Source of the DNA: a virus
Length of the DNA stretch: 31,555 nucleotides
IMG/VR virus record: IMGVR_UViG_3300013093_000171
Location: 1 to 31,555 of that record
Strand: one strand, 5' to 3'
The number at the start of each line of letters is the position of its first letter. Position 1 is the stretch's first letter. Under the pieces are notes generated by a model, which was given only the letters and a program-made list of their open reading frames with translations, did not search any database and was not told where the DNA came from. Positions 3,975 to 31,555 of the stretch are shown in pieces. A program made the translations under genes and the position numbers.

Positions 3975-3977
3975 TTT

Positions 3978-4280
3978 ATGGCTGTTTACTATTCTAATAC
4001 TACTCCTTGGTATAATACTCCTATAACTAACAATTATTTAGATGTGTTAGTGATACGACCTGTGCCTGCAGAAGTGGATGATTATCTATACACAATTGAA
4101 CCACAATATGCTTACAGACCAGATTTGTTAGCAGCCGATTTGTATCAAGATCCTAATCTGTGGTGGATTTTTATTCAGCGGAATTTAGATGTCTTACAAG
4201 ATCCTGTTTTAGATTTTGCTCCAGGTACACAAATCTATATCTGTAAAAAAAGTTCCTTAACGTCTCTTTTAGGTTTATAA
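3978..4280 (+). CDS. gp53: Baseplate wedge protein gp53
   Basis: A 100-residue protein matching the conserved core of the gp53 baseplate wedge family. The hallmark run, YRPDLLAADLYQDPNLWWIF at about residues 46-65, is followed by QRNLDVLQDP and PGTQIYI. The PGTQIYI end resembles a LysM-like fold. gp53 helps join wedges around the hub during baseplate assembly. It is about half the length of T4 gp53 (196 aa), but small forms are expected in aquatic T4-like phages. It begins 3 nt after the upstream stop and ends 1 nt before the next ATG. I see no strong Shine-Dalgarno, so translation probably depends on coupling to the preceding gene. Confidence 0.82.
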   Translation: MAVYYSNTTPWYNTPITNNYLDVLVIRPVPAEVDDYLYTIEPQYAYRPDLLAADLYQDPNLWWIFIQRNLDVLQDPVLDFAPGTQIYICKKSSLTSLLGL

Positions 4281-4281
4281 T

Positions 4282-6543: not shown

Positions 6544-6548
6544 CTTAT

Positions 6549-8135: not shown

Positions 8136-8137
8136 TC

Positions 8138-8575
8138 ATGGCAATAACTCTTTATACAGGTACACCGGTTAATGCAAAAAATCCACCTCAAGGTAAAAAT
8201 ACCTCTCAGGTCTACAAGGGATTTAGCACAGTCAATACCAATACACAAAACTTTTCTCTCTATGACTTTGAATTAATTAAGCAAGATCTACTCAATCATT
8301 TTTATGTACGTAAGGGTGAACGGCTTATGCAACCAAATTTTGGAACAATTATATGGGATATGTTATTTGAGCCTTTAACTCCGGAAATTCAAAATTTAAT
8401 CATGCAAAATGTTAACGAGATTTTTAACAGTGACCCTAGAATACAAGCTAGTAATATTGTGATTACACCTTACGATACTGGTATACAGATTCAGTGTGAA
8501 CTAAAGTATTTTTTGTATAATCTTCAAGAAGCTCTGCAACTGAACTTTGATCAAGCTAACGGTCTTACTTATTAA
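8138..8575 (+). CDS. gp25: Baseplate wedge protein gp25
   Basis: A 145-residue gp25/GPW family protein (T4 gp25 is 132 aa), the sheath-proximal part of the baseplate wedge that templates sheath assembly and is conserved across contractile injection systems. Typical segments are YDFELIKQDLLNHFYVRKGE and RLMQPNFGTIIWDMLFEPL. The ATG at 8138 is chosen because it lies just past the gp5 stop (8133-8135), with AAAGGA at 8121-8126. The reading frame stays open to an upstream ATG at 8099, but that start would add 13 residues not expected in the family and overlap gp5 by 37 bp. The gene stop (8573-8575) overlaps the first bases of the promoter B 14-mer. Confidence 0.92.
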   Translation: MAITLYTGTPVNAKNPPQGKNTSQVYKGFSTVNTNTQNFSLYDFELIKQDLLNHFYVRKGERLMQPNFGTIIWDMLFEPLTPEIQNLIMQNVNEIFNSDPRIQASNIVITPYDTGIQIQCELKYFLYNLQEALQLNFDQANGLTY

Positions 8576-15000: not shown

Positions 15001-18000
15001 TGGCAGTTTTGTTCCAGCCACACCAACAAAATTAGGTATGTGGCCTGCATTTGCGCCAAAAATTTATCTTGATACAACTTTAATTAATCCGGTGAAAGTT
15101 ATACAAGGACACGATGGTAGTATTGTCGCAGCCTACAATGATTACAGAGACGATTTAATTCTTGAATTAGAAAAAAGAATTTTTAACAATATTAAAGTCA
15201 AATACAATGCAGATATTTTTGATATCTATAGTATTATTCCTAGTTACACACGATTTACCGACTATTCATTTACAGAATTTAATAATGTCTTATCTAGTAA
15301 TTTTTATAGCTGGGTAAGCCTTGTAGGTAAAGATCTTACAACGCCATTGAACTATGATAGAAAGAATAGTTTTACTTTTAATTATTCTTTGAATACAGCG
15401 CCAGATGGTACAAGCCTTCCAGGCTATTGGAGGGGAGTATATCGTTGGTTATTAGGAACAGATAGACCTAATATTTGTCCTTGGGAAATGTTGGGATTCA
15501 GTCTGCAACCAAGTTGGTGGACAGCGTTATATGGTCCAGCACCATATACTAGCGATAACATTCCTATGTGGACTGATATTGCAAACGGTATAACTAGAGA
15601 ACCTAATCAACCTGCATCTGTTAATGCAAATTATGTTAGAACATTTTTATTGAATCACTTGCCGGTAGATGAACAAGGAAATTTAATTAGTCCGCAGGCA
15701 TCGGGATTAGCATCAGGAACTGTACAACCTAGTATCAATAATAATTTTGTTTTCGGTGATGGTAGTCCAGTAGAAAATGCTTGGACTCGTAGTAGTTATT
15801 ATCCCTTTAGTATTATAGCTACAGCTATATTATTAAAACCTGCCGAAGTATTTGGCAAGTTATTAGATAGAAGTAGAATTATTAGAAACAAAGCAGGGCA
15901 ACTAATTTATTCTGATACTGGATTGCGTGTTCGCCCAGCAGACATTTTATTACCTAGTGTTTATTCAAGTTCTTTGAGAGTACAAACTGCTGGATTAGTT
16001 AACTATATTGTAGATTTAATTTTTAATTACATTTTTAGTAATGATGTAGCGGCTTATAATTCTTATAAATCTGATCTAAATACTATGATCGTTCAATTAA
16101 GCTATAGAGTCGGGGCATTCACTAATAAAGAGCAGTTCAAACTAATTTTAGAATCTAAAACTCCTAGTAGTACAGGAAATGTTTTCATACCTGCTGAGAA
16201 CTACAAAGTATTCTTAAACAAATCAAGCCCTGTAAAAAAATTATCCTACAGTGGAGTAATTATTACAAAAGTTTCTACAGGATTTGAAATTAAAGGATAC
16301 AGTATAACACAACCTTATTTTAGATATTATCCTTACACAAGTTCGGGTAATACAATTAACGTTGGCGGAATAAGTGAAAGTTATGCAACATGGGCATCGG
16401 GCCAACAATACATATCAGGTAACGTTATTTTATACGAAGGTGTTTATTACCGATCGAATGCAAATTTTGTATCAGGACCTAGTTTTGATACTACAAACTT
16501 AACTAAATTACCATCGCTGCCTATGCAAGGCGGTGTTACTGCAATATTAAGAAACGGTTGGGATAAAAAAGAAATTTATACAGCACCGTATGGCACATTA
16601 TTTGCAACTATTCAAGAAGTTGTAGATTTCCTATTAGGCTACGGAGAATATCTACAAGATCAAGGATTTAGATTTGATGATTATAATAATAACTACAATG
16701 TAGTTTCAAACTGGGAAACAACTGCTAGAGAATTTCTATTCTGGACTACTCAAAATTGGAGTACTGGTCAAGAAAAATGGAGCGATTGGCAAGCCGAGCA
16801 ACCTTATAGTTATGGAAAAGTTGTAAGATATGATGGCGATTATTACAGTGCCTTATATAATCTGCCCCCTGCTGAATCGTTTGATGAAACTAAATGGTCT
16901 CTATTACCAGGCCTTAGCAATATAGGAGCCAGCGTCATTAGTCTGAGCCCGGGCGCCAATGCTCTTAATTTTACAACTACACTTTCTGTAGTCGATAGTA
17001 TTACTAACTCATTTAACCCTTACGAAATTTTCAAAGTTAATGGAACTCCTTTTGAAGTTTCGAACCTTGATAGCTATAGGCAAGGAAATTCTGTTCGATA
17101 TAATCCTAGGAATGACGAAGGCATATACGGTGCTAGTTTTTATTTGATACAAAATGAACATGTTATTATTGTTGATAATACAACTATATTCAATGATATA
17201 ATCTACAGTCCTACTAGCGGTTACAAAAGAGATAGATTAAAAATCTCAGGATATGTGACTACAGACTGGTATGGTGGATTAGATATACCGGGATTTATTT
17301 TTGACTCTGCTACTATTAACGAATGGCAGCCTTGGCAAGATTATAATACGGGCGATGTGGTTACATATCAAAGTTATTATTATAGTGCAGATGAATTTAT
17401 TCCAGGAGCACCGGCATTTGTTAATTCTAAATGGATAAAATTGTCTAGTAAACCTACACCTCAGATTCTTCCAAACTGGACTAATATTGCAACACAATTT
17501 GTTGATTTTTACAGTACAGATGTTGATAGTTTTAATACTGCACAACAAACTATGGCGCAACACTTGATCGGATACCAAAAACGACAATATCTTGATAATA
17601 TCATTCAAGATGATGTGAGCGAATTCAAATTTTATCAAGGAATGATACGTGATAAAGGAACACAAACCGTCCTTAATAATCTCTTTAATGCATTAAATTT
17701 GGACAAAGCAGAAAGTTTAACATTCTACGAAGAGTGGGCTATTCGTGTTAGTCAATATGGAGCGTCTAATGCTTTCCAAGCTATAGAATTTGTATTAGAT
17801 CAAGGAAAATATATTAGTAATCCCCAAGGAACATTGTTAACAAATACTATCAATTCTAATATTAATCCTTTTATCATACAGCAAACTCTGTCGGATATCT
17901 ATGTATCGCCTACAGGATATAACAGTCAGCCGTTTCCTGTTTTATCAGCACCAAATCAATTTTTAAGAGATGCAGGATATGTAAATCCCGCAGATGTCTT

Positions 18001-21000
18001 TGTTAGTATTGGCAGACTATCGGATCTTACAGCACAATCTGTAAATTCTATTATTCCTGGAGTTAGTTATAAAATAATAAACACTGGAACAACAGATTTT
18101 ATAGCGATAGGATCATCTTCTAACACAGCTGGTACGATATTTACTGCTACTGGTGCCGGATCAGGAACCGGAACAGTTCAATTAGATGTTACACAGATCA
18201 ACGAGGGCGCTTACATCTGGTGTGCGTTTGATGGCCCAACTAGCTGGAATGTTTATAGATTTACAGATGTGCATATTCGTGTGACAAATGTCACCTATTC
18301 AAATAATGTAATGACTATCACAGCTCAGAATAGTATTAAATTAAATGTAGGATCTTATGTAGGATTATCGCAAGTAACTGCCATCGATGGATTCTATAAA
18401 ATTACTAGCGTTATACTAAACGAATTTACCGTAGATGCTCCAGGAGTCAAAGTTCCTAGTCCATTTACTCAACAACAAAATTTAATAGTTTATGCATTAG
18501 TCTCACAGCGTACTAGTTCTATTGATGATATAGATAAGATATTGCCAGTCAACTTACAGACTGGTAACTTTGTGTGGACAGATGATGACGGTACAGGATC
18601 TTGGGCTAATTGGATCTATGCTCCAGTGTTTGTACAACAAAAATTAAATGCACCGCAGCCTGCTAATCTCACTAAGTTTGGAAATTTTGTTGCTATCAAT
18701 AAATTGGGTACAAATGCCGCTATATCAGTTGGAGCAAATCTTTTTGCTCTTTATAATAAGGTAGCTGCCGGAGTTGCTTGGACGCAACAACAACTACTGC
18801 AACCTCCTTTTAATAGCAAATCGGTTCCTTCGTCGAACACTCCAGTCTCGGTTATAGCTTTTAGTCCCGACGGAACCTGGATGGCAACTGGTAGCCCAAC
18901 AGCCGGTACGACTAGTAGTTACTTAAAAGGAAATTATAATCCTTTGTCGTCTTATCTATTTCAAGATATTGTCAAATATAACGGGTTATATTTTCAGGCT
19001 CTGTTTCCTGTTCCCGTAGGACAAACACCTTCTCAGTTGAGTCCTTTTTGGAATCAGCAATTTTATGTTCCGGTAGATACCGGGCCTTATACTACAGGAA
19101 TTTCTAACAACGGCATAGTTACAATTTATCAGAGAGATGCCAATAACATCTATCAGTTGTATGATTCATTTTTGAGTCCATCTATATCTTCGGAAAATTT
19201 TGGATCTAATCTTGTATTTGATGCAAGTAATCTTTATGTCAGTGCTGTATCTAACAACAATAATACAGGTAAAGTTTATAAACTATCTTACACAACTGTT
19301 CCTCAAATTACAGCAATCTATGATTCCGTTAATAGCTCGGGAACAATATTAAGACTAACATCTAGTGACGGCATTACAGCAGGTATGACCATTCAAGGAG
19401 TTGATTCATTAGGTATCAGCGCATTTACTAGCGGCCAGACGGTAACCGCTGTTCTTACTCGTTTGCTGTTTGTTCCGGTTCCTGGGCAGTTGAATTATCT
19501 TTATAATACTTCAACTACTGCTGTTAATATTAGCAAAATACAATCAGGTATGTCTGTGTCTTTATATAAAACTTTAGGTGGATATAATTATAATGTTTCT
19601 CAAGTAACAGTTTATACCGCAGGGTTAACATCTGTCAACGTGTTAGTTACTACTAAAACATTGACATCCGGCGGCGCTAAAGGAACTAACTATTTCTTTG
19701 TCAGCAGTAATACTAATGTTTTGGTAGGACAATTGATAGTAGGAACCGGTGTTCCTACTGGTACTTTTGTTGGCAGCATAACACTAGTAAACAGTAGTTA
19801 TGAAATTGTAATGGTAGATTTTGTAGGTGCAATACAAAATTTTATTATACAAGGATCTGGATCTTACGAGTTTTTCAATGCAGTAACTTATGGGTTTGTA
19901 GATATACAAGCACCAAAAGGTTACTCGCCAGCATCGACGAATCTTCCTATAGGCGTAGCTCAATTTAATAACGATCCTACGTTGATTTTTAATGTTTATC
20001 AAACACAGAGTACAAATAGTATTATTTTGTCAGGTGCTCCTAATCTAAATCCTGCAGGATCTATTGTCTTTTCAACTACTGACTGGACATACGCCGACAC
20101 AGTAGGATCCGGTGATGCTATAAACAATTTCTATGGCAGCCAACTGGCTTTAAGTCTAGACGGATCTACATTACTAGTATCGGCATCAGGAGGTTTAGTT
20201 GGTAAAGTTTATGCTTATAGATCCGGTACACTTATACAAACTTTGGTAGGAATTGATAACAGTTTTGGTCAAGGAATAACAGTTTCAGATGATGGTTCTT
20301 ATATTGCTATAAGTGATGATTTACAGACTTACGCTAACATAAATCAACAGGGTACAGTTGGGGTTTATCAATATAATCCTACTAGTAATTTATATGTCAG
20401 CTATCAGAGTATCACTGATCACAGGCCCGAAATTAATGGAGAATTTGGCAGTAAAATTAGTTTCATGAATGATAGCCAGACATTAATAATTTACAGTCAA
20501 AATGGCTCTAGTGTTATTAAGACTACATTTGATGGTTATACAACAGAACTTGCATCTAGCCAAGCCGCATATGGAACACCATATGTTAATGATCCTACCT
20601 CTGACACTTCGACTGCAACCACATTCGATAAACAATCGACCACATTTATAACTACACAAGTTGCAACAGGCAGGATAGATATTCATGATAGATATAACAA
20701 TAATTGGGTGTACGGAGAAAGTTTACCTAATGTTTATAATTCTGTCAGCGGATATGGACAAGGATTTGCCGTAGGATCTAATAATATTTTTATTGGTGTT
20801 CCTTATTTTACTTCTACATATACAAATGTTGGGCAAGTTAGTTTATACATTAAGCCAGCTAATACTTTATCTTGGAACAAATATAGAACACAAGCACAAG
20901 TTGTTGATGTTAGTAAAATTAAAAAAGTTTTCTTGTATAATAAATCTACAGAAAGATTACTTACCTACTTAGATGTTATAGATCCTATACAAGGTAAAAT

Positions 21001-24000
21001 TGCAGGACCTGCTGAAGAAGAAATCACCTACGAGACATTTTATGATCCTGCTACTTACAGTTACAGCGATGGAAGTGTGCAAGTAAATGCAAATAGTAAT
21101 GGCTACTGGACAACAAATCAAATAGGTCAATTATGGTGGAACCTATCAACAGCAAAATTTGTTAATCCTTATTTTACCGATGTAGCTTATAGAAATAATT
21201 CTTGGAATACGCTAGCACCCGGAGCAAGTATTGATATTTACGAATGGGTCGCTAGTCCATTGTTACCAGAACAATGGGATTCACAATCTCAGACAACAGC
21301 AGGTGTATCGTCAGGAATAACTGGAAAAACATTATATGGTAATAGTGCTTATAGTGTTACTAAAACATATAACAGTGTAACAAAGACGTTTAAGAATACT
21401 TATTATTATTGGGTAGCTAATAAAAATACGGTACCTGAGGTTATAGGTAGAAATATCTCTGCTCAGGCAGTTGCAAGTCTTATAGCTAATCCACGTGGGC
21501 AAGCCTACACCTATGCTAGTTTAATTGGCCCAGATTCATTTAGTTTGACTAATGTAAATCAATACCTAACCGATACTAATACAGTCCTAGCGGTTGAATA
21601 TTGGACAGTTAATAAAATAGATAGAAATATTCATAGCCAATGGAAACTAATCAGTACAGACACTATTGTAGAATTGCCAAAAGTTATTCAACAAAAATGG
21701 ATAGATAGTCTATGCGGAGTGGACTCAGTTGGTCGACCCGTACCTGATTATACTTTACCAGTAAAATTACAGTATGGAATTGAAAATCGCCCTCGTCAGA
21801 GTATGTTTATCAATAGAGTTGAAGCACTAAAAGAATATATCGAGGGTGTGAATTCTGTACTAGCATCTATACAAATTACCGGAAATTATAATTTCAGCGT
21901 ATTAGATTCTTATGATACACCACCTCCTTATACGGGAAGTACTGCAACAAATGATTTGTATGTGCCTAGCGGTCAGTTTGATCAAATCCTCAATACTGAT
22001 GTTGAAATTCAATATACAAATATTAACTTATTTGTAAGACCCGAGCTTACTCCTGAAATTGTAAACGGTGGGATAGTAGGAGCAACAATAGTATTAACAG
22101 GTAGAGGATATCTACAAGCTCCTTATATTACAGTAGTTGGTTCGGGTACAGGTGCAGTATTGAAGTCCACCATAGATACATTAGGTAGAATCAATTCGGT
22201 AGTTGTGGTCGCATCTGGTTATGGCTATGATGATAACACTACACTCGCTGTAAGAGATTACTCGGTATTAGTACTGAGTGATAGTCAAGCAGAAGGTGCA
22301 TGGAGCATCTATTCATTTAATCCTGACTATTATGATGTAAATCTTAAAACAGTTACAGGATTGTGGTCTAGAATCTATACTAAATCGTATGATGTAAGAA
22401 ATTATTGGTCGTATATAGATTGGTATGCTAGCGGCTACAATCAATTTGTCGCTCCAGATTTTTCTGTAGAAACATTTGTAGACCTTAATTTTATTAATGT
22501 CGGTATTGGAGGAATAGTAAAAATTCTTAAAGTCAACACCGGTGGTTGGATGCTATTAGAAAAATTTGCTAACTCATCTAGTGCTGATTGGACGCAGAGT
22601 TATAAAGTTATAGGATTACAAAATGGAACTATACAATTTAGTTCAAACTTGTATACCACTAGCTCTTCTGCGGTAGGATATGATGCTGGCACATTTGATG
22701 GGTCTGGTTTTGATATTAAAGCTGCCAAAGAACTAAGAATAATTTTAGAAACATTACAGAATAATATTCTCATTGACGAGCTGTATTCTAATTATTTAGA
22801 TCTGTTCTTTAGAAGTATGAAATATATTTTAAGCGAACAGCAATATGTAGATTGGATCTTTAAGACAAGTTTTGTAAGAGCTACACATAATGTAGGACAA
22901 TTAAGCCAGCCTGTATATTACCTAGTTGATAATTTAAGCAATTTCCAAGATTATATTGCAGAAGTTAAACCTTACAGAACAAAAGTAAGAGAGTATATAA
23001 GCAGATTTGCAGGAGTGCCTCAAACGGACGGAGTAGATCATGCTGAATTACCTATTACAGATTTTGATCTTCCTCCTATTATTATTAATGATACTTTGGC
23101 TATATTTAATACGCAAGTAGAAAATGGTAAGATAGTTGCAGACTTACCTCAGATTACAACAACTCCGTGGGTGTACTGGTTGGATAATGTAGGATTTAGT
23201 GTTTTAGAATTAAAGATTATTTCTGGCGGTTCTGGGTATGTTTCTCAACCCCGAGTGGTATTTGGTAGCGATAGCGGTAGCGGAGCCACAGCAGAAGTAT
23301 TTTACACTAACGGTATAATAAATCAAGTTATTTTAACTAATAATGGTTCGGGTTACCTTTCTGCTCCAACTGTTAGCATTGAAGGCGGACTAAGTTCAGA
23401 CGGTGTAGCCGCAAGATTAGTTGCTGTAATAGGTAATAGTGTTGTAAGATCAAATTTAATAGAGATGAAATTTGACCGTGTTGGTCAAACAACTTACATT
23501 ACAGATTTATCTTGGACTGATACATTTCCAGGTACAGGGTCAAAACTGATTTTTGATTTAACATGGGCACCTGATATTCGCCCAGGCAAGATATCTGTTA
23601 CAGTTTATGACAGTATATATAATACTACTACAACTATCCTTAGAGAAGAATATACTGTATCTGTAACTTCTACAAAATCATCGGGCTATACACAATATTT
23701 TGGACAACTAGTATTTTTATTCTCAGCTCCTAGCAAATATCAGACTGTAACTGTAAAATATATAAAGGACATCTCTGTATTAAATGCTATAGACAGAATT
23801 GAATATTATTATGATCCAGTTAGCGGAATGCCAGGCAAAGATCCTAAGCAATTAATGACGGGCATAGACTATGGTGGAGCAGTCGTTGGGGGGCTGGGAT
23901 TCGACATCAAAGGAGGATGGGGTAGTCTTCCGTTCGCAACTGACTACTGGGGAGAATTAGATTCTACCTATACAGATTACACTATAAAATTTCCTTTTAG

Positions 24001-27000
24001 CGGAGGCTCTGATCAATATCATGCAGTAATGCCATATGTGGCTCCTGCCGGCACATTAATAAACGTTTATTATCAAGAATTAATTAATTCGCCTTTTTCA
24101 GCAGATGGAATAACTTCTGTATTTTTTTACAATTATAATGTATTAGCCAAAGACATTCATCTTAGTGCAACCTCAACAACGACCAGTATTAATAGTGTAC
24201 AGACTACAGCTCAACCAAATTCTGCCACGTATCCAATTGCTATTACGGTCATAAATGTCATCCAAGCTACCGGTGGATCATCCGGTCAAGCTAGTATTGT
24301 TTTTACAGGAACACTCGATACTGATACTAAAAATCTTGCTAACGTATTAGTAGGACAATTTATATCCGGAACAGGCATCCCGTACGGTGCTTATGTAACT
24401 TCGGTTTCTGGTTTAACAGTTTCATTATCAGCTAATCTTACTGCTAATGCATCTGGGTTTTATAATTTCTTCGTGCTAGGTACGACGTTGACAGTGGCTA
24501 GTACAGCAGGTGTAACGGTGGGGTTAGGTGTAGTTGGAAATGGATTTACAACACAATCTGTGTCTAAAATTGTAAATTCGACAACATTAATATTAAGTTC
24601 TCCTCCTAATACAATTCCGTTGGTAGGAGAAAATTTAACTTTTGTAGGAAATGTTGCAGGTTCCGATACTTTAACAGTTCCGGGAGTAGAGATAGTTTTC
24701 TTTGGATTTATTACTGGTTCAACTTTAACTGTAACTACGACTCCTAACGTTCCGTTAGTTGTGGGTACGGTAATTAATCAAGTAGTAGGCTTTAGCCCGG
24801 AGCTTGGCCTAATGGTGACTGCTCAGATTTCTGGAAATTCAGGTGGCGCAGGTGTTTATACTCTCAGTAATGATTCTGTATATACAGATTTAACTCCTCA
24901 AGAATTGCAAGGAACAACGGTATTAATCAAAGTAGGAGATATTGTTACTTGCCAGGCATCGGGATTGACTTCTGCATTTGGCTATAATACATCTATTACT
25001 AATATTCAAATAGTACCCAACGCTATTGGACACTATGTATTGGTAAACATAACATTAAGCAGTATCATATATGCTAACCTACCAGATAGTACTATATTGA
25101 CATTTTCTAGACAACAGTATTCTCCTGCAGATGTGCAAATTAGTGCTACTTACGTGGTATTTTCTACTGTGCCGGCTGCCGGCATGACGGTTAATATTAA
25201 CGGATACATTAACACTGTGAGAATAGATGCAGATGATATTGATCCTAATACAGGTATCTCTCCTACAAATCCTTATGCAGTTACGCCAACTATAGTGGCA
25301 AACGGATCTACTGGAAATGTTTATGTCAATCATATCCCAGGTTATTTTAGTCCAAATGCAGGTGATATTTTTATATTTCGTGTAGCTAGTAGCGACGGGT
25401 CTATATCTAATCTAGGTCAAGATACTAATATTAGCGGCGGCGATACTAGTACACTTAACGGAGTTTATGCTACCGCTAATGGATTAACTGCCGATGATAT
25501 TATAATAGACGGCGACGGTCTCGTAACATCAACTTCAAGTCCTGCACCGGAAGAAGTCGTTCCTGGACAAGTAGTAGATACGTTAGCTATCAAAGTTTTT
25601 GATAGAAATCCTAACGGGTCTGCTCGAATTAAAGTGGACAATCATGTTACAAACGGGTCTACCACAGTTTATAAATTGTCGCAGCCTTCGACTAGTTCAA
25701 GGGGAATAATTGTAAAATTGGGAGGATCGATATTAGTATTTGGTTCCGATTATAATGTTAATTTTGAAAATCAATCTATCACCCTCACTAGCTCACCTGC
25801 GCCTAATCAAATTTTAAGTATTTTTATAATTGGCTATGCAGGTACAAACATTTTAGATTTAGATTATTTTATTGGAGATGGTGTAACTAGAGAATTTGTT
25901 ACACAGGCTCCATGGTTAACTAATATAACTGCCGGCGTCTACGTTGACGGTGTTGCAAGTTCTGTAGTGTTATTTGAAACATCGTCAGAGTACGTTTTAG
26001 TTAATTCTGTTGGCATTAGATTCAGTACTCCGCCAGCTAAAGGAGTGCTAATAAATTATATTATTGTTAGTGGTAATCAACAAACTTTTGCTATAACCAG
26101 TACAGAAACCGTACCTACGAATGGATCTAACACTTATACACTACAAAATTTAGTTGGTAACAGTTTACCTAACGAAAGTTACATGATAGTCAGAGTAGAT
26201 AACACTATTTTGTCCGCTCCGGTAAATGCATATTTTACAATTACCGCTGACACATTATCTTACACTATAGACACAGATAAGATTGCATCATATTCTATTC
26301 CTGCCAGCAACATTTCTGTTTTAGTTGATAATAATCTGTTATTAGGCGGTAGAGATTATACTGTTGATCTTTCGGGTATTACTGTTACTATAACTAATAC
26401 TGTCCTTAATAATTATTTAGGAAAATCACTTATTGTAAGTGCTTTGTTGACAAATGGATATACTTATAATGCCAGTACAAGACAAATTACTTTTTCTCAA
26501 TCTTACGATGCTACACATGTTGTAGAAATCACTAGCTCTTATCAACATGATAGTATAGATTTAGAAAGAACCAATGTCAGCGTAACTTCATCTAGTTCCT
26601 TAACTCCTAATTCCGTTATGTATTATAAAACTAGTGCTGTGCAGGGAGGAATACTTATACTTGAAAGAGCAGTTATTGATGAAAATTATGTATGGTTAAC
26701 AAAAAATAATATTTTATTAATACCAGGTGTTGACTATAAGTTAAACGATAACCGTCTTACAATTCAATTAGCAGTGATCCCTTCTGTATCTGATCAAATA
26801 GAAGTATTGACCTACGGCACTAAGGTTGTTGGTAATTCGATCGCGTATATGCAATTCAAAGATATATTGAATAATACATCTTATACGAGATTAAGTCTGA
26901 ACAAGCGTACAACATTAGCTGAACCATTAAATTGGTATGATTCTACTATAACACTTACTGATGCAAGTAATTTCCAATCTCCTAATATTGAGTTGAATAT

Positions 27001-28294
27001 CCCAGGAGTATTAGAAATTGCCGGAGAGCGCATACACTATTTTGTTAAGACGGGCAATGTGTTAAGTCAACTACGAAGATCTATATCCGGTACAGGTATT
27101 AAACAATCGAGTCCTGCTGGTAGCTATGTACAAGATATAAGTTCTGGAGAAACTATACCTTATAAAGATAATATTAATACTATTAATGCCGTCGCTCAAT
27201 CGGATAACTTGCTGATAAATCTCTATAACTATGATACATTCTATGGATACATAAATGGAAATGTACTAACAATTACAAGCGGAACATTTTTCTTTGCTCT
27301 AGCTACGGTTAATTCAATAATTACATCTTATACTATATCATTGCCATCTGGTACTAAGATTCTAAGTCAAATTTCCGGTGTACCCGAAAAAGTTGGATCA
27401 TATACTATTAACTATTCAACTAATATTGGGAGTAGTGATAGTCCTATATTATTTTATGTTACTCCTGGTAGTATTCCTGAGAGAGGAAGTTTGACTGATT
27501 TAACAGGAGTTGTTAAATGGTTTACATCTAATGGATATGTGTATGGTTCAGCCTATGATAACACAGCGGCTTATACCGTAGATACAGTTGTGTTATCTAA
27601 CGGATCGTATTATTATTCTTTAGTAAATATCCCTCCTTTAAGTGGCAGAACATCTGGTATTGATTACAGCACCAATAACAGTGCATATTGGGCTGTTTAT
27701 CCAACTACTATTCCGGTAGGATACGGACAAACTGATGGTATAGAAGTATTTGTGGGAGGATACAGCGAAGCAGGCGATTGGAGTCCAAATACAACCTACA
27801 CAGTTGACACCATAGTAAATGTAGGAAGTTACACCTATAGATGTATACAAAATCATACAAGCTCGGCGAACTTTACGACCGATTCGGCAGCATATTGGAA
27901 ATTCTTTATAGGCAATATTCGTTTGAACAAACAGCCCTATAAAGTTCACAATGTGAATGTTGCTCCTTACAGCCCTGCTGGAGATGTTTTATTTGATTCT
28001 GATTTTTCAGTAGACGGTGTACTACCTGTAGTTAGACTTACTAATCAACTAAAGGCAGGCGTTCAAGTCACAGTAGTTCAAAGAACTGGTGCAGCCTGGG
28101 ATAGCACTACAAATATACTATATGATAATAGTGAGATAGCTAATTTTATTAAAGCTGAAACAGGAATTTGGTATTCAGAATATAATCAAATAAGTAATAC
28201 AACACTGGGTCTATTGCCACCCACCCAACAATCAACGTTTGATGCCTCGGGTTCAACGTTGGATAGTACTGGCTTAACATTCGATCAAGGATAA
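12086..28294 (+). CDS. gp7: Giant baseplate wedge protein, gp7-like (5402 aa)
   Basis: A single uninterrupted 16.2-kb reading frame. The N-terminus (LLPRFYQTNANRKFLQSTID, then NQLDVLGGNVSHHARLNSQE and FVNFQNYYWLPYGP) and later blocks (WRGVYRWLLGTDRPNICPWE near residue 1116, WWNLSTAKFVNPYF near 3015) follow the gp7-like wedge proteins of aquatic T4-like phages. T4 gp7 is 1032 aa. Between conserved blocks lie probable accessory modules: six CBM5/12-like segments, a beta-propeller-like region (about residues 2199-2935), Gly-rich beta repeats (22065-22240, 23205-23395, 24300-24900) and serial strand modules (25560-26830). The C-terminal about 500 residues return to conserved-looking sequence (LRRSISGTGI, PYKVHNVNVAPYSPAGD). 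gp7 forms the wedge periphery where fibres attach. GGGAG precedes the ATG, which overlaps the gp6 stop (TAATG). Homology beyond the N-terminal third is less certain. Confidence 0.82.
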   Translation: MAGNNKNANGSNGFSVNLLPRFYQTNANRKFLQSTIDQLYQPGSLTKISGYVGRKNAKASTGKDVYIQAADQIRQNYQLEPGLTITDTLGNVTYFKDYIDYINQLDVLGGNVSHHARLNSQEFYSWDPHIDWDKFVNFQNYYWLPYGPQTINVHGQIQPIASTYSVAIQQEGANNQYVFTPDGSTPDPVLKLYQGQTYTFNINSPGNPFSIKTARSTGVLDRYSNIDSVSAYGVEVGTITFTVPTDAPSILYYQSENDINLGGMIQIYSILSDTTINVEAEILGKATYTLIDGTALSNGMKLNFVGQVTPAIYAQDEYYVEGVGTAIKLIPSRSLEIISSFTTNSPINFDSDKFDTEPFDIASGYQGKLDYITINRSSRDRNPWSRYNRWFHQDVINASAKFNNQTPVLDQSVRAKRPIIEFNADIKLYNLGTVAIQDIDLVDDFTIDAFLTIEGTAGYNIDNVALSPGMFVLFTADIDPLVQNKIFRVEYVDVKHLSTGSNQLHLVEVASPELNQIVIVRQGSVNQGSMYWYDGSKWQKGQTKSSINQPPMFDVVDNDGISFGDKTTYVGTTFTGTPIFSYPGSLPNSSVTGSNDIYLGFPLSYQNVNNIGDIVFNFNLVTDSFQYKQNTILQNKEIDVGFLSSLDYAGNTVYVNGWQTCKTKTVQAAVRIYDNSGITNNFNIDIFDDINNLSDLVVKIYINGVRLDPSLWTIQDTIYYKQVILTSPIQSTDILTIRAFASQPINSNGYYEIPINLQNNTLNGTMVDFTLGEVADHVSSIIDNITNFSGNFPGDSNLRDLGNVTQYGTKFVQHSGPISLSAYHITSESNNIIRSLQQAKDDYNNFKRLFLNTASSLGIDGDAVKLVDIIMQQINASKPKVAPYYLSDMVPYGAATVTVLDVVDYRIKNYPLSKVFSLDSLSNQAVGVYHNGVQLIYGQDYSFNSQGFIEIDPSVPLVTGDTITTYEYDSTDGSFVPATPTKLGMWPAFAPKIYLDTTLINPVKVIQGHDGSIVAAYNDYRDDLILELEKRIFNNIKVKYNADIFDIYSIIPSYTRFTDYSFTEFNNVLSSNFYSWVSLVGKDLTTPLNYDRKNSFTFNYSLNTAPDGTSLPGYWRGVYRWLLGTDRPNICPWEMLGFSLQPSWWTALYGPAPYTSDNIPMWTDIANGITREPNQPASVNANYVRTFLLNHLPVDEQGNLISPQASGLASGTVQPSINNNFVFGDGSPVENAWTRSSYYPFSIIATAILLKPAEVFGKLLDRSRIIRNKAGQLIYSDTGLRVRPADILLPSVYSSSLRVQTAGLVNYIVDLIFNYIFSNDVAAYNSYKSDLNTMIVQLSYRVGAFTNKEQFKLILESKTPSSTGNVFIPAENYKVFLNKSSPVKKLSYSGVIITKVSTGFEIKGYSITQPYFRYYPYTSSGNTINVGGISESYATWASGQQYISGNVILYEGVYYRSNANFVSGPSFDTTNLTKLPSLPMQGGVTAILRNGWDKKEIYTAPYGTLFATIQEVVDFLLGYGEYLQDQGFRFDDYNNNYNVVSNWETTAREFLFWTTQNWSTGQEKWSDWQAEQPYSYGKVVRYDGDYYSALYNLPPAESFDETKWSLLPGLSNIGASVISLSPGANALNFTTTLSVVDSITNSFNPYEIFKVNGTPFEVSNLDSYRQGNSVRYNPRNDEGIYGASFYLIQNEHVIIVDNTTIFNDIIYSPTSGYKRDRLKISGYVTTDWYGGLDIPGFIFDSATINEWQPWQDYNTGDVVTYQSYYYSADEFIPGAPAFVNSKWIKLSSKPTPQILPNWTNIATQFVDFYSTDVDSFNTAQQTMAQHLIGYQKRQYLDNIIQDDVSEFKFYQGMIRDKGTQTVLNNLFNALNLDKAESLTFYEEWAIRVSQYGASNAFQAIEFVLDQGKYISNPQGTLLTNTINSNINPFIIQQTLSDIYVSPTGYNSQPFPVLSAPNQFLRDAGYVNPADVFVSIGRLSDLTAQSVNSIIPGVSYKIINTGTTDFIAIGSSSNTAGTIFTATGAGSGTGTVQLDVTQINEGAYIWCAFDGPTSWNVYRFTDVHIRVTNVTYSNNVMTITAQNSIKLNVGSYVGLSQVTAIDGFYKITSVILNEFTVDAPGVKVPSPFTQQQNLIVYALVSQRTSSIDDIDKILPVNLQTGNFVWTDDDGTGSWANWIYAPVFVQQKLNAPQPANLTKFGNFVAINKLGTNAAISVGANLFALYNKVAAGVAWTQQQLLQPPFNSKSVPSSNTPVSVIAFSPDGTWMATGSPTAGTTSSYLKGNYNPLSSYLFQDIVKYNGLYFQALFPVPVGQTPSQLSPFWNQQFYVPVDTGPYTTGISNNGIVTIYQRDANNIYQLYDSFLSPSISSENFGSNLVFDASNLYVSAVSNNNNTGKVYKLSYTTVPQITAIYDSVNSSGTILRLTSSDGITAGMTIQGVDSLGISAFTSGQTVTAVLTRLLFVPVPGQLNYLYNTSTTAVNISKIQSGMSVSLYKTLGGYNYNVSQVTVYTAGLTSVNVLVTTKTLTSGGAKGTNYFFVSSNTNVLVGQLIVGTGVPTGTFVGSITLVNSSYEIVMVDFVGAIQNFIIQGSGSYEFFNAVTYGFVDIQAPKGYSPASTNLPIGVAQFNNDPTLIFNVYQTQSTNSIILSGAPNLNPAGSIVFSTTDWTYADTVGSGDAINNFYGSQLALSLDGSTLLVSASGGLVGKVYAYRSGTLIQTLVGIDNSFGQGITVSDDGSYIAISDDLQTYANINQQGTVGVYQYNPTSNLYVSYQSITDHRPEINGEFGSKISFMNDSQTLIIYSQNGSSVIKTTFDGYTTELASSQAAYGTPYVNDPTSDTSTATTFDKQSTTFITTQVATGRIDIHDRYNNNWVYGESLPNVYNSVSGYGQGFAVGSNNIFIGVPYFTSTYTNVGQVSLYIKPANTLSWNKYRTQAQVVDVSKIKKVFLYNKSTERLLTYLDVIDPIQGKIAGPAEEEITYETFYDPATYSYSDGSVQVNANSNGYWTTNQIGQLWWNLSTAKFVNPYFTDVAYRNNSWNTLAPGASIDIYEWVASPLLPEQWDSQSQTTAGVSSGITGKTLYGNSAYSVTKTYNSVTKTFKNTYYYWVANKNTVPEVIGRNISAQAVASLIANPRGQAYTYASLIGPDSFSLTNVNQYLTDTNTVLAVEYWTVNKIDRNIHSQWKLISTDTIVELPKVIQQKWIDSLCGVDSVGRPVPDYTLPVKLQYGIENRPRQSMFINRVEALKEYIEGVNSVLASIQITGNYNFSVLDSYDTPPPYTGSTATNDLYVPSGQFDQILNTDVEIQYTNINLFVRPELTPEIVNGGIVGATIVLTGRGYLQAPYITVVGSGTGAVLKSTIDTLGRINSVVVVASGYGYDDNTTLAVRDYSVLVLSDSQAEGAWSIYSFNPDYYDVNLKTVTGLWSRIYTKSYDVRNYWSYIDWYASGYNQFVAPDFSVETFVDLNFINVGIGGIVKILKVNTGGWMLLEKFANSSSADWTQSYKVIGLQNGTIQFSSNLYTTSSSAVGYDAGTFDGSGFDIKAAKELRIILETLQNNILIDELYSNYLDLFFRSMKYILSEQQYVDWIFKTSFVRATHNVGQLSQPVYYLVDNLSNFQDYIAEVKPYRTKVREYISRFAGVPQTDGVDHAELPITDFDLPPIIINDTLAIFNTQVENGKIVADLPQITTTPWVYWLDNVGFSVLELKIISGGSGYVSQPRVVFGSDSGSGATAEVFYTNGIINQVILTNNGSGYLSAPTVSIEGGLSSDGVAARLVAVIGNSVVRSNLIEMKFDRVGQTTYITDLSWTDTFPGTGSKLIFDLTWAPDIRPGKISVTVYDSIYNTTTTILREEYTVSVTSTKSSGYTQYFGQLVFLFSAPSKYQTVTVKYIKDISVLNAIDRIEYYYDPVSGMPGKDPKQLMTGIDYGGAVVGGLGFDIKGGWGSLPFATDYWGELDSTYTDYTIKFPFSGGSDQYHAVMPYVAPAGTLINVYYQELINSPFSADGITSVFFYNYNVLAKDIHLSATSTTTSINSVQTTAQPNSATYPIAITVINVIQATGGSSGQASIVFTGTLDTDTKNLANVLVGQFISGTGIPYGAYVTSVSGLTVSLSANLTANASGFYNFFVLGTTLTVASTAGVTVGLGVVGNGFTTQSVSKIVNSTTLILSSPPNTIPLVGENLTFVGNVAGSDTLTVPGVEIVFFGFITGSTLTVTTTPNVPLVVGTVINQVVGFSPELGLMVTAQISGNSGGAGVYTLSNDSVYTDLTPQELQGTTVLIKVGDIVTCQASGLTSAFGYNTSITNIQIVPNAIGHYVLVNITLSSIIYANLPDSTILTFSRQQYSPADVQISATYVVFSTVPAAGMTVNINGYINTVRIDADDIDPNTGISPTNPYAVTPTIVANGSTGNVYVNHIPGYFSPNAGDIFIFRVASSDGSISNLGQDTNISGGDTSTLNGVYATANGLTADDIIIDGDGLVTSTSSPAPEEVVPGQVVDTLAIKVFDRNPNGSARIKVDNHVTNGSTTVYKLSQPSTSSRGIIVKLGGSILVFGSDYNVNFENQSITLTSSPAPNQILSIFIIGYAGTNILDLDYFIGDGVTREFVTQAPWLTNITAGVYVDGVASSVVLFETSSEYVLVNSVGIRFSTPPAKGVLINYIIVSGNQQTFAITSTETVPTNGSNTYTLQNLVGNSLPNESYMIVRVDNTILSAPVNAYFTITADTLSYTIDTDKIASYSIPASNISVLVDNNLLLGGRDYTVDLSGITVTITNTVLNNYLGKSLIVSALLTNGYTYNASTRQITFSQSYDATHVVEITSSYQHDSIDLERTNVSVTSSSSLTPNSVMYYKTSAVQGGILILERAVIDENYVWLTKNNILLIPGVDYKLNDNRLTIQLAVIPSVSDQIEVLTYGTKVVGNSIAYMQFKDILNNTSYTRLSLNKRTTLAEPLNWYDSTITLTDASNFQSPNIELNIPGVLEIAGERIHYFVKTGNVLSQLRRSISGTGIKQSSPAGSYVQDISSGETIPYKDNINTINAVAQSDNLLINLYNYDTFYGYINGNVLTITSGTFFFALATVNSIITSYTISLPSGTKILSQISGVPEKVGSYTINYSTNIGSSDSPILFYVTPGSIPERGSLTDLTGVVKWFTSNGYVYGSAYDNTAAYTVDTVVLSNGSYYYSLVNIPPLSGRTSGIDYSTNNSAYWAVYPTTIPVGYGQTDGIEVFVGGYSEAGDWSPNTTYTVDTIVNVGSYTYRCIQNHTSSANFTTDSAAYWKFFIGNIRLNKQPYKVHNVNVAPYSPAGDVLFDSDFSVDGVLPVVRLTNQLKAGVQVTVVQRTGAAWDSTTNILYDNSEIANFIKAETGIWYSEYNQISNTTLGLLPPTQQSTFDASGSTLDSTGLTFDQG
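16391..17450 (+). other. Three CBM5/12-like modules within the giant wedge protein
   Basis: Three segments share the pattern W-x4-7-Y-x3-G-[DNK]-V-[VI]-x-Y-x-G/S-x-Y-Y-x-[AS], closing about 20 residues on with W-x-x-L or similar, as in small chitin/cellulose-binding modules. They start at 16391 (residue 1436, WASGQQY, GNVILYEGVYYRS), 16787 (residue 1568, WQAEQPYSYGKVVRYDGDYY) and 17324 (residue 1747, WQPWQDYNTGDVVTYQSYYY). Glycan binding is inference from the pattern; they could equally be structural spacers. Confidence 0.55.
18041..18190 (+). other. Small Gly/Thr-rich beta module common in phage structural proteins
   Basis: Residues about 1986-2035 read VNSIIPGVSYKIINTGTTDF, then IGSSSNTAGTIFTATG and GSGTGTV. 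I recognise this compact motif as one that recurs as an inserted unit in many large marine phage structural proteins. Only one copy was seen here. Function unknown; the identification is from memory of the pattern. Confidence 0.5.
18680..20890 (+). other. Beta-propeller-like (FG-GAP/WD-like) region within the giant wedge protein
   Basis: Residues about 2199-2935 contain about seven repeats of the form F-x-x-x-[LI]-x-[LF]-[ST]-x-[DN]-G-x-x-[LIM]-x-[VI] followed by G-x-V-x-[VIL]-Y. Examples are VIAFSPDGTWMATGSP, FGSNLVFDASNLYVSAV, YGSQLALSLDGSTLLVSASG, FGQGITVSDDGSYIAISDD, FGSKISFMNDSQTLIIYS and YGQGFAVGSNNIFIGVPY. Two loops are enlarged: a CBM-like module at 18926-19065 and an about 800-nt beta-rich insert at 19300-20100. 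The fold is inferred from the repeat pattern only. Confidence 0.55.
18926..19065 (+). other. CBM5/12-like module inserted in the propeller region
   Basis: Residues 2281-2327 follow the same aromatic pattern as the modules near 16.4-17.5 kb: YNPLSSYLFQDIVKYNGLYF, then FPVPVGQTPSQLSPFWNQQF. It sits between two predicted propeller blades, as a loop insertion. Binding activity is inferred. Confidence 0.5.
27560..27920 (+). other. Two CBM5/12-like modules near the C-terminus of the giant wedge protein
   Basis: Residues about 5159-5210 (NTAAYTVDTVVLSNGSYYYS, closing SAYWAVYP) and 5231-5279 (DWSPNTTYTVDTIVNVGSYT, closing SAAYWKFF). They are closer to each other (both YTVDT-[VI]-V) than to the earlier modules, suggesting local duplication. 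They flank a conserved-looking segment (YGQTDGIEVFVGGY). Confidence 0.55.
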
Positions 28295-28298
28295 AAAT

Positions 28299-30692
28299 AT
28301 GGCGTTACAATTAATAAACACAGGAACAGTGACTAATGACGGCACTGGAGATTCACTCCGTCAGGCCGGCTTAAAAATTAATTCAAATTTTACTGAACTA
28401 TATGCCTACTTGGCCACTCCATTAAGTTTACCTATCGCAGGTGCTACTAGTTCTGGCAGTTTGGGAGGAGTCAAAGTAGACGGTACAACTATTACTATAA
28501 ATCCAAATACAGGAGTTATAAACGCTAACTATACAAACTATTCACTGCCAACAGCAGTCCCATACACTATTGGAGGTGGAACTAAAGGCGGAGTTATCCC
28601 CGATGGTACAACTATCACTATCAACGGTGGAATTATTAGCGCACCATATTCTTATGCATTGCCAACTGCTAGTACAACTACATTAGGAGGCGTTAAAGTA
28701 GACGGTTCGAGTATTACTGTTAGCAACGGCATAATTAGCGCAAACTATTCTCCTTATAATCTCCCAACTGCAACTACAAATACATTAGGCGGAGTCAAAA
28801 TTGATGGTACAACAGTTACTATTAGTAATGGTGTAATTAGTTCTGTTTACAATCTTCCTCAAGCTACAACTAGTATTCTTGGCGGAGTTATGGTTGATGG
28901 ATCGACTATTAGTTCTACTAGCGGTATGATCGGTATAATACCAAGTGCCATAAAAGCCGCGGCAGCCGCTATGCTTACTGGTGGCACACAAACAGGTATA
29001 ACTTTTACATACAATTCTGGAACAGGATTGATGTCGACTACTGTAACTGGTGGCGGAGGTGGCGGAGGAATCACCGGAGTAACTGTTCAAAATTCTGGAT
29101 CAACTCAGGGTACTGCTACCGCAATAACTACATTGAATTTTACCGGTACAGGTGTAACTACAACTGCTAGCGGTAGTGTTGGGACAATAACTATTAATTC
29201 AGGAAGTTATACTTTGCCTACTGCATCTTCTAGCACATTAGGAGGAGTAAAAATTGACGGCACAAGTATTACGATCAACAACGGAATGATTAGTGCAGTG
29301 CTACCTACAGCAACCACTTCAACATTAGGCGGTGTAAAGGTTGACGGTACTAGCATTGCTATTAGTAACGGAGTAATTAGTGCTACCTATAGTTTGCCTA
29401 CAGCAAGTTCGAGCGTGTTAGGTGGAGTCAAGCCAGACGGGTCAACAATAACAATTAATCCTACTACAGGAGTTATTACAGCTAACTATACCAATTATAC
29501 TTTACCAATAGCAAGTACCAGCACAATCGGAGGAGTTAAGGTAGATGGTACTACAATTACGATTTCTGGAGGAGTAATTACCGCTCCTTATAGTTTTACA
29601 TTACCTACAGCAAGCACAAGTGTATTAGGCGGCGTAAAAATAGACAATAGTACAATTACTATTAATGGTAATGGAGTGATAAGTGCCGCACAGTATTCTT
29701 TACCAACAGCAAGTACCAGCACACTCGGAGGAGTTAAGGTAGATGGTACTACAGTTACTATTTCTGGTGGAGTAATTACTGCTCCTTATACATATAGTTT
29801 ACCAACTGCGGTGGCCGCAACTATTTCAGGCGGCGTAAAAGGCGGAGTCATTCCTGATGGTGTTACTATAACTGTAAGTGCTGGAGGAATTATTAGTAGC
29901 ACAAGCGGATATACATTACCAACTGCAAGCACTAGCGTATTGGGAGGCGTCAAAGTAGATGGCACAACTATCACTATAAATGGCAGTGGAGTTATCAGTA
30001 ATAGTTATGCTTACAGTTTACCAACCGCAAGTCTTGGCACATTGGGCGGGGTCAAAGTTGATGGATCAACTGTAACTATCAATAATGGTGTAATTAGCGC
30101 CCCATACACTTATACACTACCAACCGCAAGTTCAAGTGTATTAGGCGGTGTCAAAGTGGACGCTAGCACAATTACTGTAAATGGTAGTGGCGTGATCAGT
30201 GCTCCTCAATATAGTTTACCAACAGCAACTACAAGCGTATTAGGTGGAGTAAAGATTGACGGTACTACTATTACTATTAGCGGAGGAACAATCAGTGCTA
30301 GTGGCGGCGCTTTAAGTAGTCGATCAACAGTGGCAACAACTACTACAAGTTTAACAAATCAAGCAAGTGCAACTGCTACAGTTACAGCCGCTAAAGGATA
30401 TGCACTATACAGCATACAAGTCAGCGCAGGCGCATGGGTAACAGTATATACAAGTTCAACAGCGCAGTCAAATGACAGCACTCGAGCAATTACAACTGAT
30501 CCTACCCCAGGTAGCGGTGTAGTTGCAGAGGCAATTACAACTACTGCAACTACAACATATTTTACTCCAGCAGTGTTTGGTTTCAACGGTGATGGAACAC
30601 CAAGTACAAACATGTATTTGAAAATTTACAATAACAGCGGTTCGACTACTGCTATTACAGTGACAATAACTTACTTAAAATTAGAAATCTAA
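28299..30692 (+). CDS. Repeat-built tail fibre-like structural protein
   Basis: A 797-residue protein in three parts. Residues 1-42 (LINTGTVTNDGTGDSLRQAG, then NSNFTELYAYL) match an N-terminal cap seen on fibre/structural proteins of aquatic T4-like phages and likely attach it to the baseplate. Residues about 43-669 hold sixteen copies of a 30-38-residue unit, roughly LPTA-x-x-x-x-LGGVKVDGTTITI-x-x-GVIS, interrupted once by a Gly-rich non-repeat segment (about 208-304, with seven Gly in a row). Residues about 670-797 form a distinct Thr/Ser-rich C-terminal domain (GYALYSIQVSAGAWVTVYTS, closing ITYLKLEI) that looks like a beta-sandwich tip. Repeats of this type usually form trimeric beta shafts. 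AAGGA precedes the ATG, 4 nt after the wedge gene stop. Receptor binding is inferred; I do not recognise a specific named fibre. Confidence 0.72.
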   Translation: MALQLINTGTVTNDGTGDSLRQAGLKINSNFTELYAYLATPLSLPIAGATSSGSLGGVKVDGTTITINPNTGVINANYTNYSLPTAVPYTIGGGTKGGVIPDGTTITINGGIISAPYSYALPTASTTTLGGVKVDGSSITVSNGIISANYSPYNLPTATTNTLGGVKIDGTTVTISNGVISSVYNLPQATTSILGGVMVDGSTISSTSGMIGIIPSAIKAAAAAMLTGGTQTGITFTYNSGTGLMSTTVTGGGGGGGITGVTVQNSGSTQGTATAITTLNFTGTGVTTTASGSVGTITINSGSYTLPTASSSTLGGVKIDGTSITINNGMISAVLPTATTSTLGGVKVDGTSIAISNGVISATYSLPTASSSVLGGVKPDGSTITINPTTGVITANYTNYTLPIASTSTIGGVKVDGTTITISGGVITAPYSFTLPTASTSVLGGVKIDNSTITINGNGVISAAQYSLPTASTSTLGGVKVDGTTVTISGGVITAPYTYSLPTAVAATISGGVKGGVIPDGVTITVSAGGIISSTSGYTLPTASTSVLGGVKVDGTTITINGSGVISNSYAYSLPTASLGTLGGVKVDGSTVTINNGVISAPYTYTLPTASSSVLGGVKVDASTITVNGSGVISAPQYSLPTATTSVLGGVKIDGTTITISGGTISASGGALSSRSTVATTTTSLTNQASATATVTAAKGYALYSIQVSAGAWVTVYTSSTAQSNDSTRAITTDPTPGSGVVAEAITTTATTTYFTPAVFGFNGDGTPSTNMYLKIYNNSGSTTAITVTITYLKLEI
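28425..30305 (+). repeat. Sixteen-unit in-frame tandem repeat (fibre shaft)
   Basis: Units of about 90-115 nt encode LPTA...LGGVKVDGTTITI...GVIS. Five lie before the interruption at about 28920-29210 and eleven after it. Variant units recur in matching form: units 1 and 8 both read ITINP-[NT]-TGVI and end ANYTNY; units 2 and 12 both read LPTAV...KGGVIPDG. This suggests blocks of several units have been duplicated together. Confidence 0.85.
29512..29788 (+). repeat. Near-identical duplicate units inside the fibre array
   Basis: 29512-29590 and 29710-29788 (offset 198 nt) are almost identical at DNA level, for example GGAGTTAAGGTAGATGGTAC in both, with only a few mostly silent differences. Neighbouring units have diverged far more in their codons, so this points to a recent two-unit duplication or gene conversion. 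Confidence 0.7.
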
Positions 30693-30693
30693 T

Positions 30694-31555
30694 ATGAATT
30701 TTACTCCAGCTCATTTAATTCCAATAGATCTAGTTCAACCAGAAGTAGGAATGACTCCAGATGGTCTTGGTGCTTACATACCTTCATATTTGGCACCACC
30801 GGCGATAGCCACAGCATATAGTATTCCTGCAAGTACAGGTTATGGAGTAAAGATTGCAATTTTTAGTTTTGGCGGAGGATTTTTGCAAAGTGATCTTAAT
30901 AAATCATTTGCTGATCTACAATCCGCCGGACTCTTAAACTCGTCCCTTACAGTGCCAACAATTCGTCAAGTATTATTAGATGGGCAAACTGGAAATTGGA
31001 CTAATGGCGGTGCAGACGGCGAAAATACAGTTGACATATACTGTACGGCAACAATGGCTCCACAAGCACAAATTTCTATCTATATAGGAAGTTATCTATC
31101 AAGCATGGTAACGCAGGCTTTAGCAGATCAAGTACATATTTGTACAATGAGTTGGGGAAGCGGCGAGTATACATCGGACGAGCCCAATCTCCAAGCCTTG
31201 GCTAATGCCAAGATAACTTTTTTAGTATCATCCGGTGATTACGGTGATGTTGTGAGTGAAGGCAGCACAAGCGAAGCAGTAGTTTATCCTGCCTCAAGCC
31301 CCTACGCTATAGGTGTTGGTGGAACTCATCTTTATCTAAATAGCAGTTACGTTAGAATTTCTGAAACAGATGACAATGGCGATGCTAATTTTCCTTCTGG
31401 ATGGGGTGGCGGTGGCGGAGTTAGTACAACATTTAGTTTACCTAGTTGGCAAACTGGATTGTACTTTACTCCGGTCGTATCGGGCGTTACGGGAAGTCCT
31501 AGAGCATTAACCATGCGTGGCGTGCCAGATTGGGCCGCACCTATGAGTGCTTATG
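30694..31555 (+). CDS. S53 family (sedolisin/kumamolisin) serine-carboxyl peptidase, partial
   Basis: The first 287 residues are visible; the window ends inside the gene. Sedolisins are subtilisin-fold endopeptidases with a Ser-Glu-Asp triad, usually active at acid pH. The catalytic Glu and Asp appear as E110 and D114 in GADGENTVDIYCTATMAP, and the oxyanion Asp as D182 in FLVSSGDYGD. Further family segments are CTMSWGSGE, VYPASSPYAIGVGGTHLY, a GGGGGVSTTF loop and MRGVPDWAAP. In the family, MRGVPD leads into the GTSA motif with the catalytic Ser, which would lie just past the right edge. Only about 30 residues precede the catalytic domain: no pro-kumamolisin domain and no signal peptide. It starts one nucleotide after the fibre stop, with no clear Shine-Dalgarno, so it looks co-translated. 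A tail-associated role is inferred from position. Confidence 0.88.
   Translation, partial: MNFTPAHLIPIDLVQPEVGMTPDGLGAYIPSYLAPPAIATAYSIPASTGYGVKIAIFSFGGGFLQSDLNKSFADLQSAGLLNSSLTVPTIRQVLLDGQTGNWTNGGADGENTVDIYCTATMAPQAQISIYIGSYLSSMVTQALADQVHICTMSWGSGEYTSDEPNLQALANAKITFLVSSGDYGDVVSEGSTSEAVVYPASSPYAIGVGGTHLYLNSSYVRISETDDNGDANFPSGWGGGGGVSTTFSLPSWQTGLYFTPVVSGVTGSPRALTMRGVPDWAAPMSAY

Follow-up and report, generated by a model that had tools for sequence, protein, structure and literature searches.

Kumamolisin-type peptidases encoded next to tail fibres suggest a protease mount in large bacterial viruses

Introduction

Why would a bacterial virus carry the gene of a sedolisin-type peptidase directly behind a tail fibre gene? 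The question is raised by IMG/VR record IMGVR_UViG_3300013093_000171, whose full length of 31,555 bp is the stretch analysed here (hereafter the window). An earlier note had pointed to S53 peptidase hallmarks in a T4-like tail operon, and proposed that the enzyme could cut host surface protein at adsorption, or process the fibre or the giant wedge protein. To our knowledge, the enzymes described on phage fibres are nearly all depolymerases that cut sugars. The results below suggest that phage fibres are fitted with proteases of exchangeable type, which cut proteins on the host surface.

Results

The window encodes a kumamolisin-type peptidase

The gene is located at 30694-31555 on the plus strand (codons 30694-31554). 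It starts with ATG and encodes 287 residues that correspond to residues 1-287 of about 409 in a prodomain-less type of enzyme. Its 3' end is open because the window is the whole record, so the gene is truncated at the contig end. The hallmarks listed in the earlier note (E110/D114, D182, SWG and RGVPD) all lie where it had placed them. Glu E110 (codon 31021-31023) and Asp D114 (codon 31033-31035) are part of a GENTVD motif, and the E-xxx-D spacing is also present in the members of the lineage that we inspected. The oxyanion residue D182 (codon 31237-31239, SGDYG motif) aligns with AAGDSG of kumamolisin and is followed by SWG, PASSPYAIGVGGT and RGVPD. A phmmer search against PDB chains matched kumamolisin with an E-value of 1e-19 (residues 30-281) and sedolisin with just 1.6e-5. 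The protein is thus an S53 peptidase of the kumamolisin type.

The sole Pfam match of the window protein is Peptidase_S8 (PF00082, clan SB; E 4.9e-7, above the curated cut-off), which reflects the clan-SB core shared by S8 and S53. We rejected a filing as subtilase: the HGT motif of the S8 catalytic histidine (HGTxVAG) is absent, a GENTVDI Glu/Asp pair is present instead, and both catalytic residues and predicted fold are those of S53.

The catalytic serine, the calcium site and a C-terminal tag are expected past the contig end, and a search of IMG/VR for an exact copy of the window's end returned none. Relatives were gathered from IMG/VR in a single scan (8 loci) and a profile scan (38 loci); adding a second, prodomain-bearing branch to the search raised the yield to 54 loci. 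Dozens of IMG/VR contigs carry the lineage, including ones of 338-355 kb. The serine motif that the earlier note had hoped to see downstream occurs in these relatives: the first eight (53-76% identical to the window) carry GGTSLxxP together with a GWDxVTGLG calcium-site region, and the intact L001 (76% identical over the window's length, 409 aa) reads GGTSLACP. The C-terminal Ca2+ site of the relatives reads FYDITVG...GWDPVTGLG, and the corresponding stretch lies past the window's end. Members that reach far enough keep E-xxx-D, GDxG and GTS (ATS in L034), and mostly end in a WDxxTGLG-type motif with few variations. One locus (L030:10001-11267) has a frameshift that splits the gene into two ORFs, probably an assembly or recent error; the gene is intact (407 aa) in L060, another, near-identical contig. 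A truncated or decaying pseudogene was rejected for the window, as the gene breaks off where the contig does and intact relatives are numerous.

The S53 assignment is also borne out by the predicted structure of L001 (AlphaFold2, pTM 0.86, mean pLDDT 79). In a Foldseek search of the PDB, ranks 1-12 are all kumamolisins (kumamolisin-As 4ne7, TM 0.74/0.85; best E-values about 6e-24 to 7e-24), and subtilisins reach about 0.45 TM. As judged on this model, the fold is that of sedolisins.

Three S53 queries searched by tblastn against 50,697 phage genomes gave zero S53 matches. As a positive control, the same query recovered bacterial S53s on plasmids and chromids (about 36% identity, E-values down to 5e-31), and an S8 query on the phage genomes recovered cyanophages. 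We thus rejected the idea that S53 is already known in cultured phages, there being none among the 50,697 phage records, and our literature search found no paper on a phage S53 or on a fibre-tip/peptidase cassette. In a viral structure library, phage entries score lower, at the subtilisin level. The predicted structures of the BFVD giant-virus entries A0A3G5A7D9, A0A3G4ZQ87, A0A3G5AIP2 and A0A3G4ZQN5 (Homavirus, Barrevirus, Sylvanvirus, Terrestrivirus) are S53-like, and they resemble the phage S53 more than any phage entry of the library does.

The gene follows a fibre that is probably anchored in the baseplate

The tail-operon setting described in the earlier note is confirmed by the genes upstream, all on the plus strand. 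Structural proteins, a gp53-like wedge, a gp5-like hub and a gp25-like wedge (2964-8575) precede a gp6-like baseplate wedge protein (phrog_10646, 8622-12086). The closest reference phages of this gp6-like protein are the jumbo myoviruses Phosso, Atu_ph07, SCTP-2 and the GAP32/K64-1 group (about 35%), and it is 43-69% identical to proteins of the S53-bearing contigs of 338-355 kb. By its gp6, the window appears to come from a very large, jumbo-myovirus-like bacterial virus. A host gene or contaminant was rejected, given the phage tail operon, the grouping of the phage S53s into a single clade among the sequences sampled, and the lack of matches in two pattern-based scans of GTDB genome contigs (see below).

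Directly upstream of the fibre is a giant baseplate-region protein of 5402 aa (12086-28294), with homologues in the same place in related contigs. It takes up about half of the contig. The cyanophages S-CREM1 and S-H38 also encode a protein of ~5400-5500 aa directly before their tip gene; BLASTP gave no match to the C-terminal part of the window's 5402-aa protein.

The fibre protein (797 aa, 28299-30692) consists of an N-terminal baseplate adaptor, a shaft of LPTATTSVLGGVKVDG repeats and a C-terminal tip domain. Because its N-terminus matches the baseplate connector families phrog_958 and phrog_677 (Pfam T4_gp9_10_N in the relative L001), the fibre is probably anchored in the baseplate; the S-CREM1 and S-H38 counterparts start alike by eye (NDGTGDTLR...). 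The tip domain (30306-30689, the last ~128 aa, phrog_15343 region) is one conserved C-terminal unit of ~125 aa that is found before both S53 and S8 peptidases, on differing shafts (GGVKVDG repeats, collagen-like GxQG and others). It is predicted to form an 8-stranded beta-sandwich (pLDDT 94), and the fold search returned weak matches (HFTV1 turret, TM 0.43/0.47).

The peptidase gene almost touches the fibre gene, as had been claimed: the fibre ends at 30692, the S53 ATG starts at 30694, and the junction TAA-T-ATG (30690-30696) comprises the fibre stop, one base and the S53 start. The window thus has a tip-ending fibre with a peptidase a few nucleotides downstream. Related phages retain S53 beside fibre genes, another point raised in the earlier note, and the gap is 1 nt in 57 of 62 non-redundant S53/tip pairs. 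S53 is also found in contigs whose other neighbour genes are unrelated. Several S53s adjoin fibres without the tip domain, so this mount is not universal.

Subtilases occupy the same slot in cyanophages

The tip domain is widespread in cyanomyoviruses, and the next gene there is an S8 subtilase, usually with the same junction. The gap is 1 nt in S-H9-1, S-CREM1, ACG-2014h, S-CAM1 and S-WAM2, and the S8 start overlaps the tip gene in S-H38 (Pfam S8 matches, 3e-10 to 3e-29). Marine contigs, too, have S8 rather than S53 after the tip domain. Overall, 25 of 47 S8/tip pairs have the 1-nt gap. In a broader sample, the gene after the tip is an S53 in 34 cases, an S8 in 50 and another gene in 14; all S8 proteins were found via the tip domain, so the S8 set contains tip-linked members alone. 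Two cyanophage S8s (L044:5314-7320 and L046:5314-8238) have a cupredoxin-like C-terminal extension beyond the tag, based on weak Pfam Copper-bind matches (L046 also has weak esterase/dienelactone-hydrolase matches), which may represent extra domains on the fibre tip.

A C-terminal tag is common to both peptidase families

Intact S53 relatives end in PKxNYGFRPxTGxxYPRxTxGAR. The tails of the S8 proteins resemble this tag (TGNVFPKKNMKSRPTSGQTWPRPR in L091), and the consensus common to both families is PKxNxxxRPxxGxxYPR. Bacterial S53s, which end 12-24 residues past TGLG, are without it. At E<0.01, an HMM built solely from 22 S53 tails detected 11 of the 44 S8 proteins and two of 2228 other ORFs; at E<1, the figures are 31 and six. 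The low-E matches outside the peptidases are small proteins with the terminal motif near tip genes (PSS2 gp090, L044, L106, L112, L125, L129). Among complete S53s, the tag is present in 59 of 60 that adjoin a tip and in none of six without a tip; since S53 sequences supplied both the tag regex and the HMM, these S53 counts are partly by construction, which does not apply to the counts for S8 and background. The sole untagged tip-linked S53 (L031) ends early and its frame looks broken. On the tree, tip and tag change jointly in three of four independent pairs and in opposite directions in none, which is not significant; L177 is scored as tip-less just because its contig starts at the S53 gene.

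The tip-less S53s have other C-terminal ends. Those of L032, L036 and L037 have tails with KTxxTWxxV repeats, and the adjoining fibres end in GDIWY-like sequence. These fibre ends (GAIGDIWI/GNIGDIWY; loci L032:9968-11374, L036:9905-11311 and L037:9923-11212) perhaps belong to a second mounting system. The S53s of L024 (fused to Ig-like domains, 1413 aa), L185 (1327 aa) and L041 (912 aa) have long C-terminal parts. L024:9971-14212 (without prodomain) and L185:7899-11882 (with prodomain) are on separate S53 branches, each with a fused form of >1300 aa, and their C-terminal ends are similar (FNFNQLNFTIDRVIIASTL and FDFNHFEFYIDRITIESTL); in L024, Pfam Ig-like/cadherin-like domains lie between the S53 and this end.

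Small proteins with RPxxGxxYPR-like ends (L044:4194-4427, L051:7278-7706, L125:7690-7893), including ORFs of ~88 aa (L106:3989-4255, L112:3986-4252, L129:4236-4499), are located in or near a second tip-gene cassette, where the next gene encodes a non-peptidase 'MAVTKxEYLVNxGNTGW' protein. They may be a third kind of cargo on the tip mount.

These observations bear on the alternative that S53 and S8 are maturation proteases: produced together with the fibre, they would cleave it, its tip domain or the giant baseplate protein as the particle is assembled, with no need to reside in the virion. The tight coupling of peptidase and fibre genes and the termination of the fibre exactly at the tip domain would suit such a role, and T4-like phages have prohead-type maturation proteases. 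However, a long conserved tag common to two peptidase families and to small non-peptidases fits stable docking better than transient cutting, the Ig-like or glycine-rich fusions (L024, L185, L041) fit a structural part, and the tip domain occurs with S8, with S53 or with neither. We consider this alternative rather improbable, and the shared docking-like tail and the exchange of S8 and S53 on one tip lead us to favour a virion enzyme acting at the host surface over one that processes the fibre or the giant wedge protein.

The sampled phage S53s group in one clade, probably with a single loss of the prodomain

The Pro-kuma_activ prodomain, usual in cellular S53, is absent from the window protein (PF00082 being its only Pfam match) and from its clade. 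In a tree with seven bacterial S53s, a branch with SH-aLRT 100 sets 66 phage S53s apart; within them, another branch (SH-aLRT 100) separates the 27 prodomain-less members, window included. Sister phage S53s (L052, L053, L056, L090 and L105) do carry Pro-kuma_activ (Pfam, 2e-9 to 8e-16), and presence or absence of the prodomain corresponds to one change on the tree. The simplest reading of this tree, which includes few cellular sequences, would be one capture by phages and one prodomain loss. Two pattern-based scans of GTDB genome contigs gave zero matches, such scans being insensitive to divergent cellular S53s.

An S53 fold could also have become catalytically idle and serve as a receptor-binding (adhesin) head, its residues kept by descent. 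Clan SB folds could act as binders, and the activity of the phage S53 is itself read from sequence. The glutamate, aspartate, oxyanion aspartate and serine are, however, kept across a long-branched clade, one lineage keeps the pro-kumamolisin activation domain, and two different peptidase families fill the same slot. We regard an idle adhesin as unlikely. A soluble or secreted accessory protease (lysis aid, counter-defence or nutrient release) whose position in the tail operon is accidental is very improbable: cellular S53s are mostly secreted enzymes, but the phage forms have no signal-peptide-like N-terminus by eye, lie 1 nt after the fibre gene across unrelated gene neighbourhoods, and have a tag confined to tip-linked members.

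Tip and tag proteins are detected in virions of P-SS2

Mass spectrometry of purified P-SS2 particles detected gp087 (on average 11 peptides), gp088 (17.5), gp089 (6) and gp090 (4) (PMC2784084 Table 2). By sequence matches, gp087 carries the tip domain and gp090 the tag, so virions contain proteins of both kinds. No peptidase adjoins the P-SS2 tip gene. The main text of the S-CREM1 and S-SCSM1 virion-proteome papers reports mass spectrometry and does not name an S8 or S53 peptidase.

Discussion

We favour, with moderate confidence, a catalytically competent virion S53 that is docked by its tag on the baseplate-anchored fibre and cuts host surface protein at adsorption. The peptidase, made without secretion signal or prodomain, would be co-translated with the fibre, and its C-terminal tag would dock it on the beta-sandwich tip in which the fibre ends. 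During adsorption, it could then cut host protein layers (S-layer, pili, outer-membrane protein or a protein capsule). The S53 identity is near certain, the association of S53 with the fibre is probable, and action at the host surface is plausible, with about even chances. We infer the activity, the tag docking, the virion location of the S53 itself and the substrate from the observations above. As sedolisins generally work best in acid, it is uncertain whether the enzyme would be active at the near-neutral pH of a cell surface, and the loss of the prodomain raises the question of how the phage S53 folds.

In the favoured scheme, tip and RPxxGxxYPR tag would form a general mount for swappable proteases, with S53 in jumbo phages and S8 in cyanophages and other marine phages. 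It is possible, at less than even chances, that the mount is widespread, that its proteases serve as protein depolymerases, and that the peptidase family follows the chemistry of habitat or host surface (acid-type S53 in one set of phages versus the S8 of marine cyanophages).

If true, the fibre tips of many phages would hold a conserved place for a peptidase that cuts host surface protein for entry, the widespread cyanophage subtilases now labelled hypothetical would gain a function, and a short tag for attaching proteins to fibre tips would be defined. S53 also becomes an enzyme family of phages, and its naturally prodomain-less branch could serve to study sedolisin folding. New here are the S53 lineage in phages, the 1-nt junction to a fibre that ends in the conserved tip domain, the exchange of S53 and S8, the common tag, and the single clade with one probable prodomain loss.

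Among known systems, the phage S53 is most like kumamolisin and kumamolisin-As (MEROPS S53) in its catalytic E/D, oxyanion D, GTS serine and GWDxxTGLG calcium-site region, and in having the same fold in the L001 model (TM 0.74/0.85 with kumamolisin-As) at about 30% identity. It differs from them in that a secretion signal is absent, the prodomain is lost in the window's clade, a phage-specific C-terminal tag of about 30 residues is present, and the gene lies in a baseplate/fibre operon. The S8 proteins of cyanomyoviruses (S-CREM1, S-H38, S-WAM2, S-H9-1) share the upstream tip domain, the tag, clan SB and, in most, the 1-nt junction (S-H38 overlaps), but have a D/H/S triad in place of the E/D/S of S53 and an N-terminal I9-like stretch (weak Pfam match). 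They are annotated just as subtilisin-like protease, peptidase or hypothetical, and peptidases in syntenic places are mentioned for P-HM1 and P-HM2 (PMC3037559). Depolymerases on jumbo T4-like tailspikes and fibres, for which the branched fibres of Klebsiella phage phiKp24 are an example (PMC9700779), are likewise enzymes on baseplate-linked fibres, presumed to clear a way for the phage across a surface layer. Polysaccharide is the substrate of these depolymerases, which are fused to the spike, whereas the phage S53 is a separate peptidase, apparently clipped on by a tag. In T4 gp37-gp38 and Tfa-type tip adhesins, a small gene directly follows the fibre gene and its product caps the tip. The likeness to the S53 cassette is one of gene position and of the proposed place on the tip; gp38 and Tfa are an adhesin or chaperone without peptidase activity.
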